From positions 1 through 28,177 of IMG/VR virus record IMGVR_UViG_3300019761_000013: DNA of 28,177 nt; one strand, written 5' to 3'. The stretch comes from a virus. Below the pieces are notes generated by a model. The model saw nothing but the letters and a program-made list of their open reading frames with translations. It made no database searches and was not told the origin of the DNA. Numbering within the stretch: the first letter of the stretch is position 1; each line of letters starts with the position of its first letter. Shown one piece after another: positions 13,866 to 19,992 of the stretch. A program made the translations under genes and the position numbers.

Positions 13866-14319
13866 AATAAATCCTTAGATTAAGCTATGTCTATGACACG
13901 CCTAAGCAAGTAAAGTAAACGGTTCAGGGAAGTACATGAATTGAATGGCAGGTGAAATCAATGGGGGGGCCGTCTGGTTGTATGTCGGTAAAAGTGATAT
14001 TAGTACCTCCCTCCCCGAAAATTTAAAAATGACACACGTCTTACTGATAATCGTTATCAATACCATACTTATCATCTATATTATCCTACTAATAAACAAT
14101 GGAGTTATCAAATCAGTAGTATAGGGTATAAAAGACCGGCTGAGCGGAGGGTTAAGAGCGTGCCTATGAGAACTTGGTAATACCAAAATCACCTGCTCGG
14201 TTGAGGTTGAGGTAAGGCCTAGACAAGTTGGTAAATACCCGATCCTATAAAATTTCCGGAAATAATTCAGTAGAAGTTAAGTATATTGAGAGTATACTGT
14301 TAGTAACAAAGGAATAAGC
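13866..14319. promoter_or_regulatory. Divergent control region
   Basis: 454 nt between divergent genes. Contents: a seven-G run near 13972-13978; an inverted repeat TGATAA-N3-TTATCA near 14047-14061; a possible 31-codon membrane ORF (14029-14124); hairpins TTGGT-AAT-ACCAA near 14174-14186 and GGTA/TACC near 14230; a perfect 12-bp palindrome ATTTCCGGAAAT (14252-14263); and AGTATA-N7-TATACT (14280-14298) around a -10-like box just upstream of the first rightward gene. No strong -35 is seen. Confidence 0.45.
14029..14124 (+). CDS. Possible small membrane peptide, 31 aa
   Basis: ATG at 14029 gives MTHVLLIIVINTILIIYI..., one long hydrophobic span with an Asn in the middle and a short GVIKSVV tail. 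No Shine-Dalgarno site lies before it (AT-rich only), and the hydrophobicity may just reflect AT-rich sequence, so support is weak. Confidence 0.3.
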   Translation: MTHVLLIIVINTILIIYIILLINNGVIKSVV

Positions 14320-14496
14320 ATGAAAGAACAACTAGAACAAATTATAATAACTACTGAATATCAGTTAGAGTGCGCACTACAAGAACTGGCAAAAGCTGAT
14401 GACTACATGGTGCCCACAAAAACGTATGAGTTGAGAGTAGCTGAGACAAAAGGTGAACTAAAAGCACTAAGAATGGTACATGGGATGTTAGGATGA
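14320..14496 (+). CDS. Small helical protein, 58 aa
   Basis: ATG 14320 follows AAAGGA with good spacing. The sequence (MKEQLEQIIITTEYQLECALQELAK...) is two amphipathic helices separated by a proline-containing turn (MVPTKTYELR), likely an antiparallel coiled-coil hairpin. Its stop overlaps the next start as ATGA, so it is coupled to the RHH gene and could be its partner. The upstream promoter-leader (TATACT to SD) is nearly identical to the one before 17477. Function unknown. Confidence 0.65.
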   Translation: MKEQLEQIIITTEYQLECALQELAKADDYMVPTKTYELRVAETKGELKALRMVHGMLG

Positions 14497-16271: not shown

Positions 16272-16300
16272 ACTTTGTATAATTAAGGTACAAAGTTTTT
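16272..16300 (+). terminator. Rho-independent-type terminator
   Basis: Perfect 8-bp stem ACTTTGTA (16272-16279) / TACAAAGT (16289-16296), 9-nt loop, then TTTT. The stem is AT-rich and so weak, but position just after the GIY-YIG stop and the U-tract support termination of the 14320-16265 operon. Confidence 0.6.
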
Positions 16301-16303
16301 AAT

Positions 16304-16363
16304 AAAGAGGTCAATCTTGGCGGACTCACCTCTTTAGTAAGTACTTGATAAGAAGTCCGCCAA
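16304..16363 (+). ncRNA. H-type RNA pseudoknot candidate
   Basis: Two uninterrupted helices interleave. S1: AAAGAGGT (16304-16311) with ACCTCTTT (16328-16335), 8 bp. S2: TTGGCGGACT (16317-16326) with AGTCCGCCAA (16354-16363), 10 bp. Loops are 5, 1 and 18 nt, sterically reasonable for a classical H-type fold. It lies after a terminator and 55 nt before the HNH gene. It could be a leader, a ribozyme-like or protective RNA element, or the 5' part of a mobile cassette. The same pairings could instead act as alternative hairpins. Confidence 0.6.
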
Positions 16364-16418
16364 CTCTTCTGAACACTATCAAACTTAAAAATTAACCTAT
16401 GGCGAAAGAAACATAATA

Positions 16419-17450
16419 ATGAAATTACACTCAACTGTAACGAACAAAGTATCTATAAAGACATACAATAAACTGCCTAGCAGGATAGCTCAAATCCACG
16501 GAGATAAATACGACTACTCTCTATTTACATTTAAGGGGGTTAAAGACTCTAGTACACTTCGATGTAATACAGGTAGACACCCTGATTGGGAAACTAGTAT
16601 GGACAAGCATCTAAATGGAAAGCTAGGTTGTCCCTTATGTGCGCTAGAGAAGAAAATCAAACCTACTGCAAAGCTCTATGTCGAATACCAGAGAAGGTTA
16701 GGACTTGGTATACTAAATGCTGTGCACACCTACTGCAAGTTTAAGAAGCCGCCTGCACTTTTATTAATAGGTAAACTTAATAAAAGGTTGAAAAATGAGG
16801 CAACAAAGAAACAACAACGAAAAGAAGTTAAGAGGTTATCAGATAAGAAATATAGAGAGAATAATAAAGAACGACTAGCCGCAAAAAATAAAGCGTGGAG
16901 AAATAAAGACATTGAAGCTTATAGAAAGTCGGAGAGGGAACGGAGGAGTAACCGATCGGCGGAAGAGGTAGAACGACAACGACTAGCTAGACAAGAGTAT
17001 AATAAGGCAAACTCCGCTAAAGTCAAACAAGCTAAGAGAGAGTCTAGATTGAGACACATTGAGAAAGCTAAAGCTACTTGTAAACGTTACAGAGAGTCTG
17101 CTAAAGGCCAGGCAATTGCTAAAGAAGCTAGAGCAAAGTACACAAGTAAGAAAAAAGAAGTCAGTGACGGAACAGTAACAGGTCCGGCATTGAAAGCATT
17201 AATGGAGGATCAAAGGCACCGCTGTAAGTACTGTGATAATGTATTGACTTACTTAAAGCCCAAGTATATACACTTAGATCACGTATTTCCTATCAGTAAA
17301 GGAGGCTTACACACAATAAACAATGTAGTTTGGAGTTGTGCTTCATGCAACTTGAGTAAAAGCTCAAGTACTGACTACAGCTTCCATCCTAACCAACAGA
17401 CAGCGGCTAAAGACTATGTGACAGTTCAGCCAACGTTAATAGAGATGTGA
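16419..17450 (+). CDS. Zinc-module HNH homing endonuclease-like protein, 343 aa
   Basis: Residues 25-75 carry one treble-clef-like module (IHGDKYDYS...LRC...H..W..S...HLNGKLGCPLC) of the DUF723-like type that is repeated four times in the protein at 20018. Residues about 125-245 are an extremely basic, R/K/E-rich predicted helix or coiled coil that could track along DNA. The C-terminal HNH domain reads CKYCDNVL...IHLDHVFPISKGGLHTINNVVWSCASCNLSKS, with both CxxC knuckles, catalytic D-H and N-N. Such genes are free-standing or intron-borne homing endonucleases. There is no strong SD before ATG 16419, only a five-codon mini-ORF overlapping it, so expression is probably low. A pseudoknot lies upstream. 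Confidence 0.85.
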   Translation: MKLHSTVTNKVSIKTYNKLPSRIAQIHGDKYDYSLFTFKGVKDSSTLRCNTGRHPDWETSMDKHLNGKLGCPLCALEKKIKPTAKLYVEYQRRLGLGILNAVHTYCKFKKPPALLLIGKLNKRLKNEATKKQQRKEVKRLSDKKYRENNKERLAAKNKAWRNKDIEAYRKSERERRSNRSAEEVERQRLARQEYNKANSAKVKQAKRESRLRHIEKAKATCKRYRESAKGQAIAKEARAKYTSKKKEVSDGTVTGPALKALMEDQRHRCKYCDNVLTYLKPKYIHLDHVFPISKGGLHTINNVVWSCASCNLSKSSSTDYSFHPNQQTAAKDYVTVQPTLIEM

Positions 17451-17479
17451 TATACTGATATTAACAAAGGAATAACATG
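17451..17479 (+). promoter_or_regulatory. Promoter-leader cassette before the 48-aa gene
   Basis: TATACT (17451-17456) with an upstream TG at the extended -10 position, followed by 9 nt and AAAGGA then ATG. Nearly the same sequence, TATACTG..A.TAACAAAGGAATAA, occurs at 14293-14322 before the 58-aa gene. No -35 match is seen. The -10 starts directly after the HNH stop codon. Confidence 0.5.
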
Positions 17480-17623
17480 ATAGAAATAGAAGAGATAGTA
17501 GACGAAGTAGTGGACTTGGTAGATAACAAGTTGAATGAAAGAGGTATTGACTTGGTAACAGACGAAGCAGACGAACTGCGTGAGTGTGTGCAGATGATAC
17601 TGGAAGTAAGAGAAGGGCTATGA
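17477..17623 (+). CDS. Small acidic protein, 48 aa
   Basis: ATG 17477 follows AAAGGA. Very acidic (MIEIEEIVDEVVDLVDNK...), predicted as one or two amphipathic helices with regular hydrophobic positions, ending in CVQMILEVREGL. Possibly a DNA-mimic-like or coiled-coil peptide; no family recognised. Its stop overlaps the following start as ATGA. Confidence 0.6.
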   Translation: MIEIEEIVDEVVDLVDNKLNERGIDLVTDEADELRECVQMILEVREGL

Positions 17624-17745
17624 GAAAATCAAAACAACAGACAATGTACCGACGTAAGAAAAGTAAAGTAAAAGCAGATAAGTCGCAAATAAAACCAACA
17701 ACACCAGGATTGGTAGAATGGTTGTTAGGTAAATTACGTGGATAG
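17620..17745 (+). CDS. Small basic protein, 41 aa
   Basis: Starts at the ATGA overlap with AAGGG upstream. Strongly basic (MRKSKQQTMYRRKKSKVKADK) with a short C-terminal hydrophobic helix (LVEWLLGKLRG). Opposite in charge to the acidic 48-aa partner it overlaps, so the two might form a pair. Nucleic-acid binding is likely on charge alone. Confidence 0.55.
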   Translation: MRKSKQQTMYRRKKSKVKADKSQIKPTTPGLVEWLLGKLRG

Positions 17746-18133
17746 ACTGGGTAATTCCTTCTGGACGGAAAATGAAGTCACAGATTTCAACAAACAGGAC
17801 ATAACACCAGACAAGCCAAAGTGGAATGTAGAGCCGACACAAAAGAGTATGGCAACATACACACTCCACAAGGATGGTAAGTTCACAGGCACGATGCTGA
17901 TACTAGCAGTTGATAGTCAGATCGACACATACGAAGCACTGAATACCGAATGGGTTGAAACTGGATTGGTAGTGCAGCTTGGTGAATGTGGAGACCCGAC
18001 ATACGGCTGGGAGAAGAAGATTGAGGCGCTACAAATCGTACTAGAGCGATACAAATACACACCAAAATTCAATAATGTGCTTGGTTGTGATTGCATATAC
18101 CGATACGAACAATGGATCGAGAACTTGTTGTAA
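17738..18133 (+). CDS. Unknown protein, 131 aa
   Basis: The frame begins with GTG at 17738 overlapping the previous gene; an alternative ATG at 17852 (MATYTLHKDG) would give 93 residues. Mixed alpha/beta: ATYTLHKDGKFTGTMLIL strands, WVETGLVVQLGECGD, then helix KKIEALQIVLERYKY and a C-terminal CDCIYRYEQWIENLL. Three clustered cysteines (GECGD, CDC) may bind metal. Not recognised. It is followed by a 350-nt non-coding stretch. Confidence 0.6.
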   Translation: MDRLGNSFWTENEVTDFNKQDITPDKPKWNVEPTQKSMATYTLHKDGKFTGTMLILAVDSQIDTYEALNTEWVETGLVVQLGECGDPTYGWEKKIEALQIVLERYKYTPKFNNVLGCDCIYRYEQWIENLL

Positions 18134-18339
18134 ACCTATTAATAATATAGTAATATTAGAGTTGTGGAGACAAAAAGGCCAACTAAGCCGATGGCCACTG
18201 GGATTCGGGCTAGTTGATAATTTCCTAGACAGGAAATAAACATAATAAATAGATCAGGTAAATTGCCTACACAAGAAACAAAATACCAACCAGTTAAGCT
18301 TCCATTAATGTGGGTTGGTGTATACTAACAACATAGAAA
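18134..18339 (+). ncRNA. Structured intergenic region with an interleaved helix pair
   Basis: No ORF. GGCC (18177-18180) pairs with GGCC (18193-18196) while AACTA-GCC (18181-18189) pairs with GGC-TAGTT (18208-18215, one bulge), giving a small interleaved (pseudoknot) pair. Next come a 7-bp hairpin with AGAC loop (18220-18237) and a 9-bp hairpin ATACCAACC/GGTTGGTGTAT (18283-18291 with 18313-18321) ending at a TATACT box. Together with the element at 18340-18442 this makes about 270 nt of dense predicted RNA structure. Confidence 0.45.
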
Positions 18340-18442
18340 GATTCCTGACGAGCGTCCTAGTTCATCTGGAATATCCACCAAAATAAAATGGTCGGGTGTT
18401 CGTCAGAGATCTTCATTGAAGAGTGCAGATGAATTAGGACGC
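18340..18442 (+). ncRNA. Nested pseudoknot RNA candidate
   Basis: Helix P1: 18340-18351 with 18400-18411 (12 positions, one C-A mismatch; the core CTGACGA/TCGTCAG is 7 bp). Helix P2: GCGTCCTAGTTCATCTG (18352-18368) with CAGATGAATTAGGACGC (18426-18442), 17 bp with one G-U. P1 and P2 interleave. A short P3 hairpin (CCACC/GGTcGG, 10-nt A/T loop) lies between P2 and P1', and a P4 hairpin (TCTTC-ATT-GAAGA, 18410-18422) between P1' and P2'. The order P1-P2-P3-P1'-P4-P2' equals that of HDV-like ribozymes, though helix lengths differ and a proper J4/2 is not evident. It precedes the winged-helix gene by 41 nt. Confidence 0.6.
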
Positions 18443-18483
18443 AACTGACACTCAAACTCAACTAAATTATTCCGAAAGAGACT

Positions 18484-19317
18484 ATGCAAGTTAATACAAA
18501 TGCAACAATACACGGTGACGTACTACGTCAAGAGCAAGTAGGACATACACAAAACAACAAGAATGGGACTGTGGTAAGATACACAGAGACCACAACTACA
18601 CTGGTAAGACAGAATAGAGCAAAGACAGGTAACATGAAAAGACTAGGACCAGCAGTAATGACAATGATGCTAAACGTAGCAGGAGATACACACAAGAGTA
18701 CAGCACTAGGAAAACTAATAGCTGAGACAAGAGGTGGAAAGACTGGTAATATCGCGTACGATAGTAAGGGCAAACCACTAAACAAATCAATAGCAGAATG
18801 GTTAGGGTGCTCGGCTCCCGTAGCAAGTAAAGTACTAAAGTGGTTAATCGAATCAGGCATGGTTGTGAAGATTGGTAAATACAAGCTAATGACTAACCCA
18901 TACGAGATACTACCAAATCAACTAGGAAGTGATGCTGTGGCTCAATTGCAGGCACATTGGGACGATAACCCTACTGAAGTAATAGAATGGCTGGAGAAGG
19001 AAGATATAGACCAAATAACAAGAGAACACACAGACTTGCTAGTAGAAAGTAGAAAAGAGCAAATAGTGCTAGAGAAACAAGCAACAGCTGAAGCAAATAA
19101 ACAAGACCAACATGCGTACGAGAACATACACCTAGCAACACCAATACTAGAGATAATGCTGAAGAAACACGAACTACAGGACATAACACCAAGTCACCTG
19201 CGGCACTACATCAACAAGACTGGTAAGATGGACGGAGTACTGACACTACATACGGATAGACCAACACAGAAGTTACTAATGGACTACACAATCCAACAAA
19301 ACAGTCAACTTCAGTAA
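18484..19317 (+). CDS. Winged-helix DNA-binding protein, RepL-like, 277 aa
   Basis: Residues 97-145 read KPLNKSIAEWLGCSAPVASKVLKWLIESGMV then IGKYKLMTNPYEILP: a helix-turn-helix followed by the wing and a xYxhNPxxhxP strand, as in RepL-type plasmid replication proteins and related phage regulators. The N-terminal 95 residues are basic and Thr/Gly-rich. The C-terminal half (about 150-277) is a long charged helical region with two predicted coiled-coil stretches. Probably binds DNA as a transcription or replication regulator at the head of the packaging and virion block. AAAGAG precedes ATG 18484. The structured RNA region directly upstream suggests regulation at RNA level. Confidence 0.65.
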   Translation: MQVNTNATIHGDVLRQEQVGHTQNNKNGTVVRYTETTTTLVRQNRAKTGNMKRLGPAVMTMMLNVAGDTHKSTALGKLIAETRGGKTGNIAYDSKGKPLNKSIAEWLGCSAPVASKVLKWLIESGMVVKIGKYKLMTNPYEILPNQLGSDAVAQLQAHWDDNPTEVIEWLEKEDIDQITREHTDLLVESRKEQIVLEKQATAEANKQDQHAYENIHLATPILEIMLKKHELQDITPSHLRHYINKTGKMDGVLTLHTDRPTQKLLMDYTIQQNSQLQ

Positions 19318-19341
19318 AACACAAGCCAATGTGACCTATAA

Positions 19342-19379
19342 TGTAGTCAGGTAGTTAAGATAGACTGCCTGAAACTACA
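19342..19379 (+). other. Long hairpin before the ClpP-like gene
   Basis: TGTAGT-CAGGTAGT pairs with ACTGCCTG-aa-ACTACA: 14 bp with one G-U and a 2-nt bulge around an 8-nt loop. It ends 4 nt before AAAGGG, the SD of the next gene. A processing, attenuation or stability hairpin is likely. Confidence 0.55.
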
Positions 19380-19392
19380 ATAAAGGGCCAAT

Positions 19393-19992
19393 ATGGAATT
19401 AGAACTAACATTCAACGAAGATAAAGCACCAGGAGCAACTAGCGAATGGGAAAAAGCAGTACCGATAATAGCGGATAAAGATACAGTATATGCGTACCTA
19501 CCAGAAGAGGTATACTCAGTTGGTAATTACTGCGAACTAATACACACATTAGAACACACAAAAGCAAAAACAGTAAAATTAATAATGAATAACGGTGGCG
19601 GCTATATGGATAGTATGCTGAGTATACGTTCGGCAATACAGAAATCCAACGCAAAAGTAATAGCAGTACTAGACGGTACAGTAGCTAGTGCAGCAACTAT
19701 GATTACGATGTGTTGTGATGAGATAGAAATAGGGGACTGGACAAGTTTTATGATACACAGCTCATCTGGAGGTACACAAGGCAAGCACCACGAAACTAAA
19801 GCATACATGGAGTTTAGTGATAAACTGCTAGCCGGTGTATTCAATGACTTATACAAAGGATTTCTGAGTAATAAGGAAATTAATAGAGTACTTGAGGGTA
19901 AAGATCTGTGGCTAGATAAGGATGAGGTACTAGACAGATGGAAAAGGAAACGTAAATTAAGTTATAATACAGACGGAAAAGGATATAATTAA
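19393..19992 (+). CDS. ClpP-like serine protease, 199 aa
   Basis: Follows the ClpP/crotonase fold: NNGGGYMDSMLSIRSAI (residues 66-82; ClpP NSPGGxVxxGxAIYD), then AVLDGTVASAATMI with nucleophile S99 (ClpP G-x-A-A-S-M), then SFMIHSSSGGTQGK with H122 (ClpP MIHQPxGG), and a C-terminal FLSNKEINRVLEGKDLWLDKDEVL with D171 or D175 as the third residue. In ClpP the triad is S97-H122-D171, so spacing is close. In phages this family mainly matures capsids as prohead protease or scaffold-fused enzyme, rather than working with a Clp ATPase. It lies upstream of TerL with structural genes, fitting that role. AAAGGG precedes ATG 19393. Confidence 0.85.
   Translation: MELELTFNEDKAPGATSEWEKAVPIIADKDTVYAYLPEEVYSVGNYCELIHTLEHTKAKTVKLIMNNGGGYMDSMLSIRSAIQKSNAKVIAVLDGTVASAATMITMCCDEIEIGDWTSFMIHSSSGGTQGKHHETKAYMEFSDKLLAGVFNDLYKGFLSNKEINRVLEGKDLWLDKDEVLDRWKRKRKLSYNTDGKGYN

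Follow-up and report, generated by a model that had tools for sequence, protein, structure and literature searches.

Pseudoknotted 5′ leaders with a conserved CGAAAGA segment in phages: a candidate family of translational operators

In the gene 32 operator of phage T4, a pseudoknot is followed by A/U-rich UUAA(A) repeats and the ribosome binding site (RBS), and the element is bound by the single-strand binding protein; translational operators built on pseudoknots are rare in phages, and a 2010 review considered this leader to be possibly the sole viral pseudoknot used in translation autoregulation (PMC3014915). RNA structure is a common means of control for the homing endonuclease genes of T4-like phages; in seg43(25), for example, a stable hairpin lies 5′ of an RBS that is not sequestered (PMC2988022). 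A pseudoknot at the 5′ terminus together with a single-stranded stretch 5′ of the RBS is likewise known from tisB of Escherichia coli (PMC7708055). Structured RNAs of a different kind, the HDV-like theta ribozymes, are also found in phages, and HDV-like ribozymes are inactivated when the leading C of their J4/2 segment is changed (PMC10879173).

The window analysed here, a 28,177-nt stretch of viral DNA, is part of the 107.7-kb phage contig IMGVR_UViG_3300019760_000001 and is identical to it across the region of interest. The same ~120 nt (window 19290–19412; end of L002, start of L003) are present at both ends of this contig, which is probably a complete genome, either circularly permuted or terminally repeated, though it is classed as linear. 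A 350-nt gap 5′ of ORF 18484 harbours a pseudoknot (leader 18338; Table 1), the two crossing helices of which were correctly placed by the initial annotation and can be read from the sequence. P1 has a core of seven Watson–Crick pairs (18345–18351/18400–18406), and P2, with 16 Watson–Crick pairs and one G–U, surpasses every other fold of the window in strength. That the stretch is folded was confirmed: when the + strand of the window was folded from starts every 40 nt, the 130 nt beginning at 18321 ranked first (−45.4 kcal/mol, z ~ −6). P1 does not begin at 18344/18345, as had been supposed when a cleavage site was proposed there, but runs outward through that site, with 18338–18342 pairing to 18409–18413 across U18343·G18408 and C18344·A18407 to give a helix of 14 positions. 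This full P1 is worth −15.1 kcal/mol, compared with −9.0 when it is limited to 7 bp; the hairpin formerly labelled P4 reaches −1.9, competes with P1 pairing and has no counterpart in relatives. A nested alternative of 13 pairs (18345–18357/18394–18406) can also be drawn.

Table 1. Features of leader 18338, a second leader and their associated genes (positions 16278–19317 of the window)
Feature	Position	Strand	Basis or remarks
Putative −10 element TATACT	18321–18326	+	Proposed from sequence; sister leaders have TATAAT
P1 5′ strand: lower AAGAU (18338–18342), tandem wobble UC (18343–18344), upper CUGACGA (18345–18351)	18338–18351	+	Pairs with 18400–18413
P2 5′ strand, GCGUCCUAGUUCAUCUG	18352–18368	+	17 pairs with 18426–18442
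Hairpin within the pseudoknot loop (P3 position)	18371–18399	+	Fold of −9.1 kcal/mol
P1 3′ strand: UCGUCAG, AG (wobble side), AUCUU	18400–18413	+	Pairs with 18338–18351
Weak hairpin 3′ of P1′ (earlier 'P4')	18410–18422		−1.9 kcal/mol
P2 3′ strand, CAGAUGAAUUAGGACGC	18426–18442	+	Pairs with 18352–18368
Linker, A/C/U-rich, mostly unpaired	18443–18472	+	Fold prediction; leader comparison
CGAAAGA	18473–18479	+	Invariant in family; here AUG 4 nt downstream
277-aa orphan ORF downstream of leader	18484–19317	+	Winged-helix-like; weak HTH matches
Inserted module, leader plus ORF	18134–19317	+	Synteny; limits approximate
Second family member, leader of HNH gene	16278–16418	+	P2 p = 0.0005
Parts of second member: TATAAT; P1; P2; CGAAAGA	16278–16283; 16293–16311/16328–16346; 16317–16326/16354–16363; 16403–16409	+	
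HNH endonuclease gene behind second member	16419–17450	+	Pfam HNH_5/HNH; PHROG endonuclease VII/HNH

With regard to significance, P2 of leader 18338 reaches p = 0.0005 against a shuffled loop and downstream stretch. The initial annotation regarded the interleaving of two such helices as improbable by chance, which does not hold for P1 taken alone: a crossing helix of equal stability arises in 5–15 % of shuffles, so that the 7-bp P1 is not significant by itself, and this rate drops to about 0.5–1.5 % when the crossing helix is required to abut P2. Shuffled windows contain crossing helices of 7 + 13 pairs (G–U allowed) some five times per strand. The main support for the pseudoknot comes from its relatives, nine leaders in all sharing one architecture in different sequences.

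These leaders were recovered by several routes. When the phage's intergenic leaders no shorter than 80 nt (42 in all) were ranked by their best crossing helices, the top four, unreached in 40 shuffles, were leader 18338, the one before the HNH gene (window 16419), and those of the genes at G001 81096- and 77912- in the phage genome, which encode a DUF723/T5orf172 endonuclease and an HTH_36 protein of 181 codons, respectively. An ending of the form CGAAAGA-N4–9-AUG is found in only those same four intergenic leaders of the phage, a coincidence expected by chance once in 111,930. Another leader of this genome, that of the DNA methylase-like gene at G001 70335- (L020), can also cross CCUCGA/UCGAGG with UGAAGCACA/UGUGCUUUA; one of 40 shuffles was as good, and there is no CGAAAGA. 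A search of viral contigs with the pattern CTTAAATTTN{0,14}CGAAAGAN{1,9}ATG gave 62 hits; of the seven strongest upstream pseudoknots among them, two are in leaders already known from the phage and five are new, in L149, L156, L158, L160 and L176. Two scans that made no demand for CGAAAGA recovered L160, L176, L156 and L158, all carrying that segment, and no further leader of the family build, the remaining matches being chance. Similarly, a geometric scan of 6.5 Mb for a P1 with wobble crossed by an 8-bp helix returned L149, L156, L158, L160 and L176, all with CGAAAG and TTAAA, along with A/T-rich chance cases that all lack CGAAAG. The family thus has no fewer than nine members, distributed over six phages: four in IMGVR_UViG_3300019760_000001 and one in each of five other viral contigs, and the case for its reality is strong.

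Beyond these, the pattern TATAATN{10,20}TTTAATAAAGAG yielded at least 119 chance hits and no members, and leader DNA used as a homology query had no match in the phage collection. Among 30 hits of the pattern search of genome_contigs there was a single doubtful pseudoknot, from a Chloroflexi MAG (L268 7160–7330): its helices of 12 and 16 pairs cross and stop at CCUUAAAUUUU, with ACGAAAGA and an AUG to follow; lacking both UAAGG and the linker, it was excluded. Some genes of the leader-bearing phages have relatives in Campylobacterota phages, and the L176 gene, an antirepressor, is closest to those of Nitratiruptor phages, of which NrS-2 and NrS-3 lack the leader. None of the 4227 models of Rfam 15 gives a gathering-score match at any of the nine leaders (for the Ga leader, at the gathering threshold only), and, judged by this and a limited search of the open-access literature, the family is apparently undescribed.

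All nine members follow the same order: lower P1, a two-position wobble or mismatch, upper P1, the P2 5′ strand within the loop, P1′, P2′, an A/U-rich linker that closes with CUUAAAUUU, (C)UUAAAUUU or a variant, CGAAAGA and, 4–9 nt further on, AUG. Structure and linker motifs are conserved together, at a constant place upstream of start codons. The build of P1 in leader 18338 is matched in eight relatives with compensatory changes. At the tandem position, six members have UU/GG, two UU/GU and leader 18338 UC/AG, whilst the upper P1 generally starts UUA/UAA, with CUA/UAG in Gb and CUG/CAG in leader 18338. The latter is the most divergent member in its linker, where ACUAAAUUA (18461–18469) replaces CUUAAAUUU. 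Together with L149 and L156 it forms a subtype in which P2 directly follows P1 and a hairpin fills the loop; only these three of the nine have a hairpin at the P3 position.

Sequences vary across the family and the pairing of P1 and P2 is kept, with changes on both sides at 16 of 19 pairs. Paired cells amount to 96.5 %, against 61 % in shuffles and 37–46 % in slid controls, and the covariation score is 1.02 against 0.28 (0/500), figures that favour structure in that the blocks were cut by hand around the helices. For this reason a second test was made in which P1 alone is given and the loop is searched against the downstream sequence for its best crossing helix. This yields p ≤ 0.0025 in eight of the nine members and 0.08 in Ga, these values being floors set by 2000 shuffles, and, by Fisher's method, 2e-17 over all nine. 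The combined value for L149, L156, L158, L160 and L176, 1e-11, is somewhat inflated, as these five were picked by pseudoknot strength among 62 hits, and it is still far from chance after correction for those 62. Downstream of P2, CGAAAGA is moderately accessible in the predicted fold (probability unpaired 0.45–0.83).

The genes behind the leaders are diverse. They include the orphan winged-helix-like ORF 18484, the HTH_36 gene, the HNH and DUF723/T5orf172 endonuclease genes, a GIY-YIG-like gene in L160 and the antirepressor gene of L176; in L149, L156 and L158 the leader stands before small ORFs, behind which come winged-helix genes of replication type. The protein of ORF 18484 shows helix-turn-helix matches, all weak, and no relative beyond the same phage among phages, plasmids, genome_contigs and other viral contigs. 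In L008 and L010, orf 17738–18133 and the Clp-type protease gene are adjacent with nothing between, and in L005, L011 and L012 other genes come directly after orf 17738, which indicates that leader and ORF are an insertion in the lineage of the window. As the insert is missing from the synteny relatives L004–L016, no covariation could be drawn from these. Covariation among relatives, which the initial annotation had named as a check, is nonetheless strong within the family; its other check, whether relatives keep the genes and not the pairings, came out the other way, as one relative carries a homologue (44 % identical) of a leader-associated gene with no leader, so that the RNA is a module not tied to one gene.

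Several other features of the surrounding DNA may be recorded. Upstream of the putative promoter, 18172–18216 is structured, with AACUAAGCC/GGGCUAGUU able to cross GGCC/GGCC, and on its − strand GGCCATCGGCTTAGTTGGCC-TTTTT resembles an intrinsic terminator. Before the Clp-type protease gene, both the window (19330–19385) and L008 (2575–2635) have TATAAT with a 5′-terminal hairpin directly after it; the sequences of the two differ, and this appears to be a simpler promoter-proximal hairpin habit of the group. A 36-nt promoter/RBS-like segment is duplicated with 89 % identity before two genes (14293–14328 and 17451–17485).

In its anatomy the family most resembles the gene 32 operators of T4, T2 and RB69. 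Both have a pseudoknot in a phage 5′ leader followed by an unstructured A/U-rich linker (UUAA(A) in gene 32) and the RBS, with nucleic acid-binding proteins as the encoded or regulating product. The new leaders differ in their longer helices, the tandem wobble of P1 and the fixed CGAAAGA as likely ribosome-binding segment, and also in preceding several unrelated genes in unrelated phages; the likeness is one of anatomy, and no homology is claimed. The genes downstream of the leaders are not SSB genes. In L156 and L158 the replication operon headed by the leader has an SSB-like gene immediately 5′ of it, which, should the gene 32 analogy hold, would be a candidate regulator, a suggestion only. 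With I-TevI, mobE, segB and seg43(25) the leaders share a structured RNA ahead of phage homing endonuclease genes. Those are simple hairpins that mostly sequester the RBS, whereas the new leaders are pseudoknots with the RBS outside, and also precede genes other than endonucleases; in leader 18338 the helices stop 30 nt before CGAAAGA, which is weakly paired in predictions. The tisB leader is comparable in its 5′-terminal pseudoknot and single-stranded stretch, but its RBS is sequestered ~100 nt downstream, the gene is chromosomal and there is no homology; a tisB-like ribosome standby role would be a near alternative.

Taken with this anatomy, 18338–18483 is probably an mRNA 5′ leader, composed of pseudoknot, linker and CGAAAGA, that serves as a translational operator or enhancer. 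A promoter at ~18300–18326 would start the transcript. TATACT is absent from the consensus promoter scan listing; in the phage's three sister leaders TATAAT lies 8–14 nt 5′ of P1, and transcription would be expected to begin near 18333–18337, placing the pseudoknot at the mRNA 5′ end. This end would fold into P1, with its internal tandem wobble, crossed by P2, leaving the mostly unpaired linker, CGAAAGA and the AUG of ORF 18484 downstream. A protein, perhaps ribosomal protein S1 or a phage protein that binds ssDNA/RNA or acts in replication, might dock on pseudoknot and linker and either block or assist ribosome entry at CGAAAGA-AUG. Control at the level of translation is suggested by the linker and by the proximity of an invariant CGAAAGA to the AUG, and since the same leader precedes unrelated genes, self-regulation by each product is unlikely. 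More tentatively, the leaders could be a mobile RNA cassette (promoter, wobble pseudoknot, CUUAAAUUU linker and CGAAAGA) carried before replication-initiator-like genes and homing endonucleases, with one trans-acting protein setting the translation of all.

An action on the transcript itself, whether protection of the 5′ end from RNases or put-type antitermination by modification of RNA polymerase, is less likely than translational control, yet it is the strongest competitor. In most members the pseudoknot is no more than ~10 nt away from where the transcript is predicted to start, and several leaders head early or replication operons. The put RNAs of HK022 likewise directly follow early promoters, but they consist of two simple hairpins and no pseudoknot, and the conserved linker and CGAAAGA next to the AUG speak for translation. 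Improbable to a greater degree is a bistable switch, in which UAAGG at the end of P1′ would have two alternative partners, 5′ UUUUA within P1 and CCUUA within the linker, and so couple the fold to the ribosome-binding segment. The base of P1 is weakened by the wobble, and a UAAGX/YCUUA pairing (X–Y being G–C, G–U or U–A) can be found in seven of nine leaders, as read by eye from the alignment; it is, however, impossible in leader 18338 and not clear in Gb, and as both strands are conserved in any case there is little covariation to draw on.

That leader 18338 is an HDV-like self-cleaving ribozyme, theta ribozymes included, cut near 18344/18345, is very hard to sustain. Its helix order (P1-P2-P3-P1′-P2′, with a J1/2 of zero length) is indeed alike, a resemblance that stems from the subtype described above, but P1-P2-P1′-P2′ is the order of any H-type pseudoknot, and the defining catalytic features are absent. 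The J4/2 segment is GUG between 18422 and 18426, as the initial annotation had it, with no leading catalytic C, and CAGA could be placed there only against the 17 pairs of P2, which would have to be 4 bp shorter. P1 continues below 18345 for 5 bp and two wobble positions, an outer helix conserved with covariation, whilst P4 and J4/2 are not conserved, the P3-like hairpin is restricted to its subtype and P1.1 is not evident. Rfam gives no gathering-score match in the window or the whole phage and nothing HDV-like at E ≤ 10 in 18130–18490, although this is a weak test, as its models cannot hold a pseudoknot. The tRNA-associated subset of theta ribozymes cleaves ≤5 nt from a tRNA 3′ end; the window has no tRNA, and the tRNA matches of the phage map away from the leader, to L020 (10890–11095, − strand), one with an unusual ARAGORN anticodon call and the other seen only by Rfam. 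A hammerhead was also considered, as CUGACGA is similar to its core and CGAAAGA to its GAAA, and was rejected: stem II, which would have to connect the two, does not form, and CUGANGA is absent from relatives. Membership of the HDV-like class therefore fails, and crossing helices in HDV-like order are no evidence for a ribozyme. What stands of the initial annotation is a structured pseudoknot of two long crossing helices with a hairpin at the P3 position, and its caution about catalysis; the kinship with HDV does not.

A DNA-level element, such as an operator or replication origin hairpin with an incidental RNA fold, has next to nothing to commend it: several of the downstream proteins are DNA-binding or replication-type, but the crossing helices persist despite complete sequence change, where a protein operator would conserve sequence, the leaders invariably face in the sense direction and keep a constant position ahead of an AUG, and a DNA hairpin requires no crossing helix. 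Chance inverted repeats, within which P1 by itself would fall, are refuted for the family by the fold z-score, the ranking of 42 leaders, the covariation and the crossing-helix test.

If the leaders are indeed translational operators, then a family of nine, four of which stand before different genes in a single genome, would show such operators to be a reusable module, and the means by which early genes are coordinated with homing endonucleases in phages would become directly testable.
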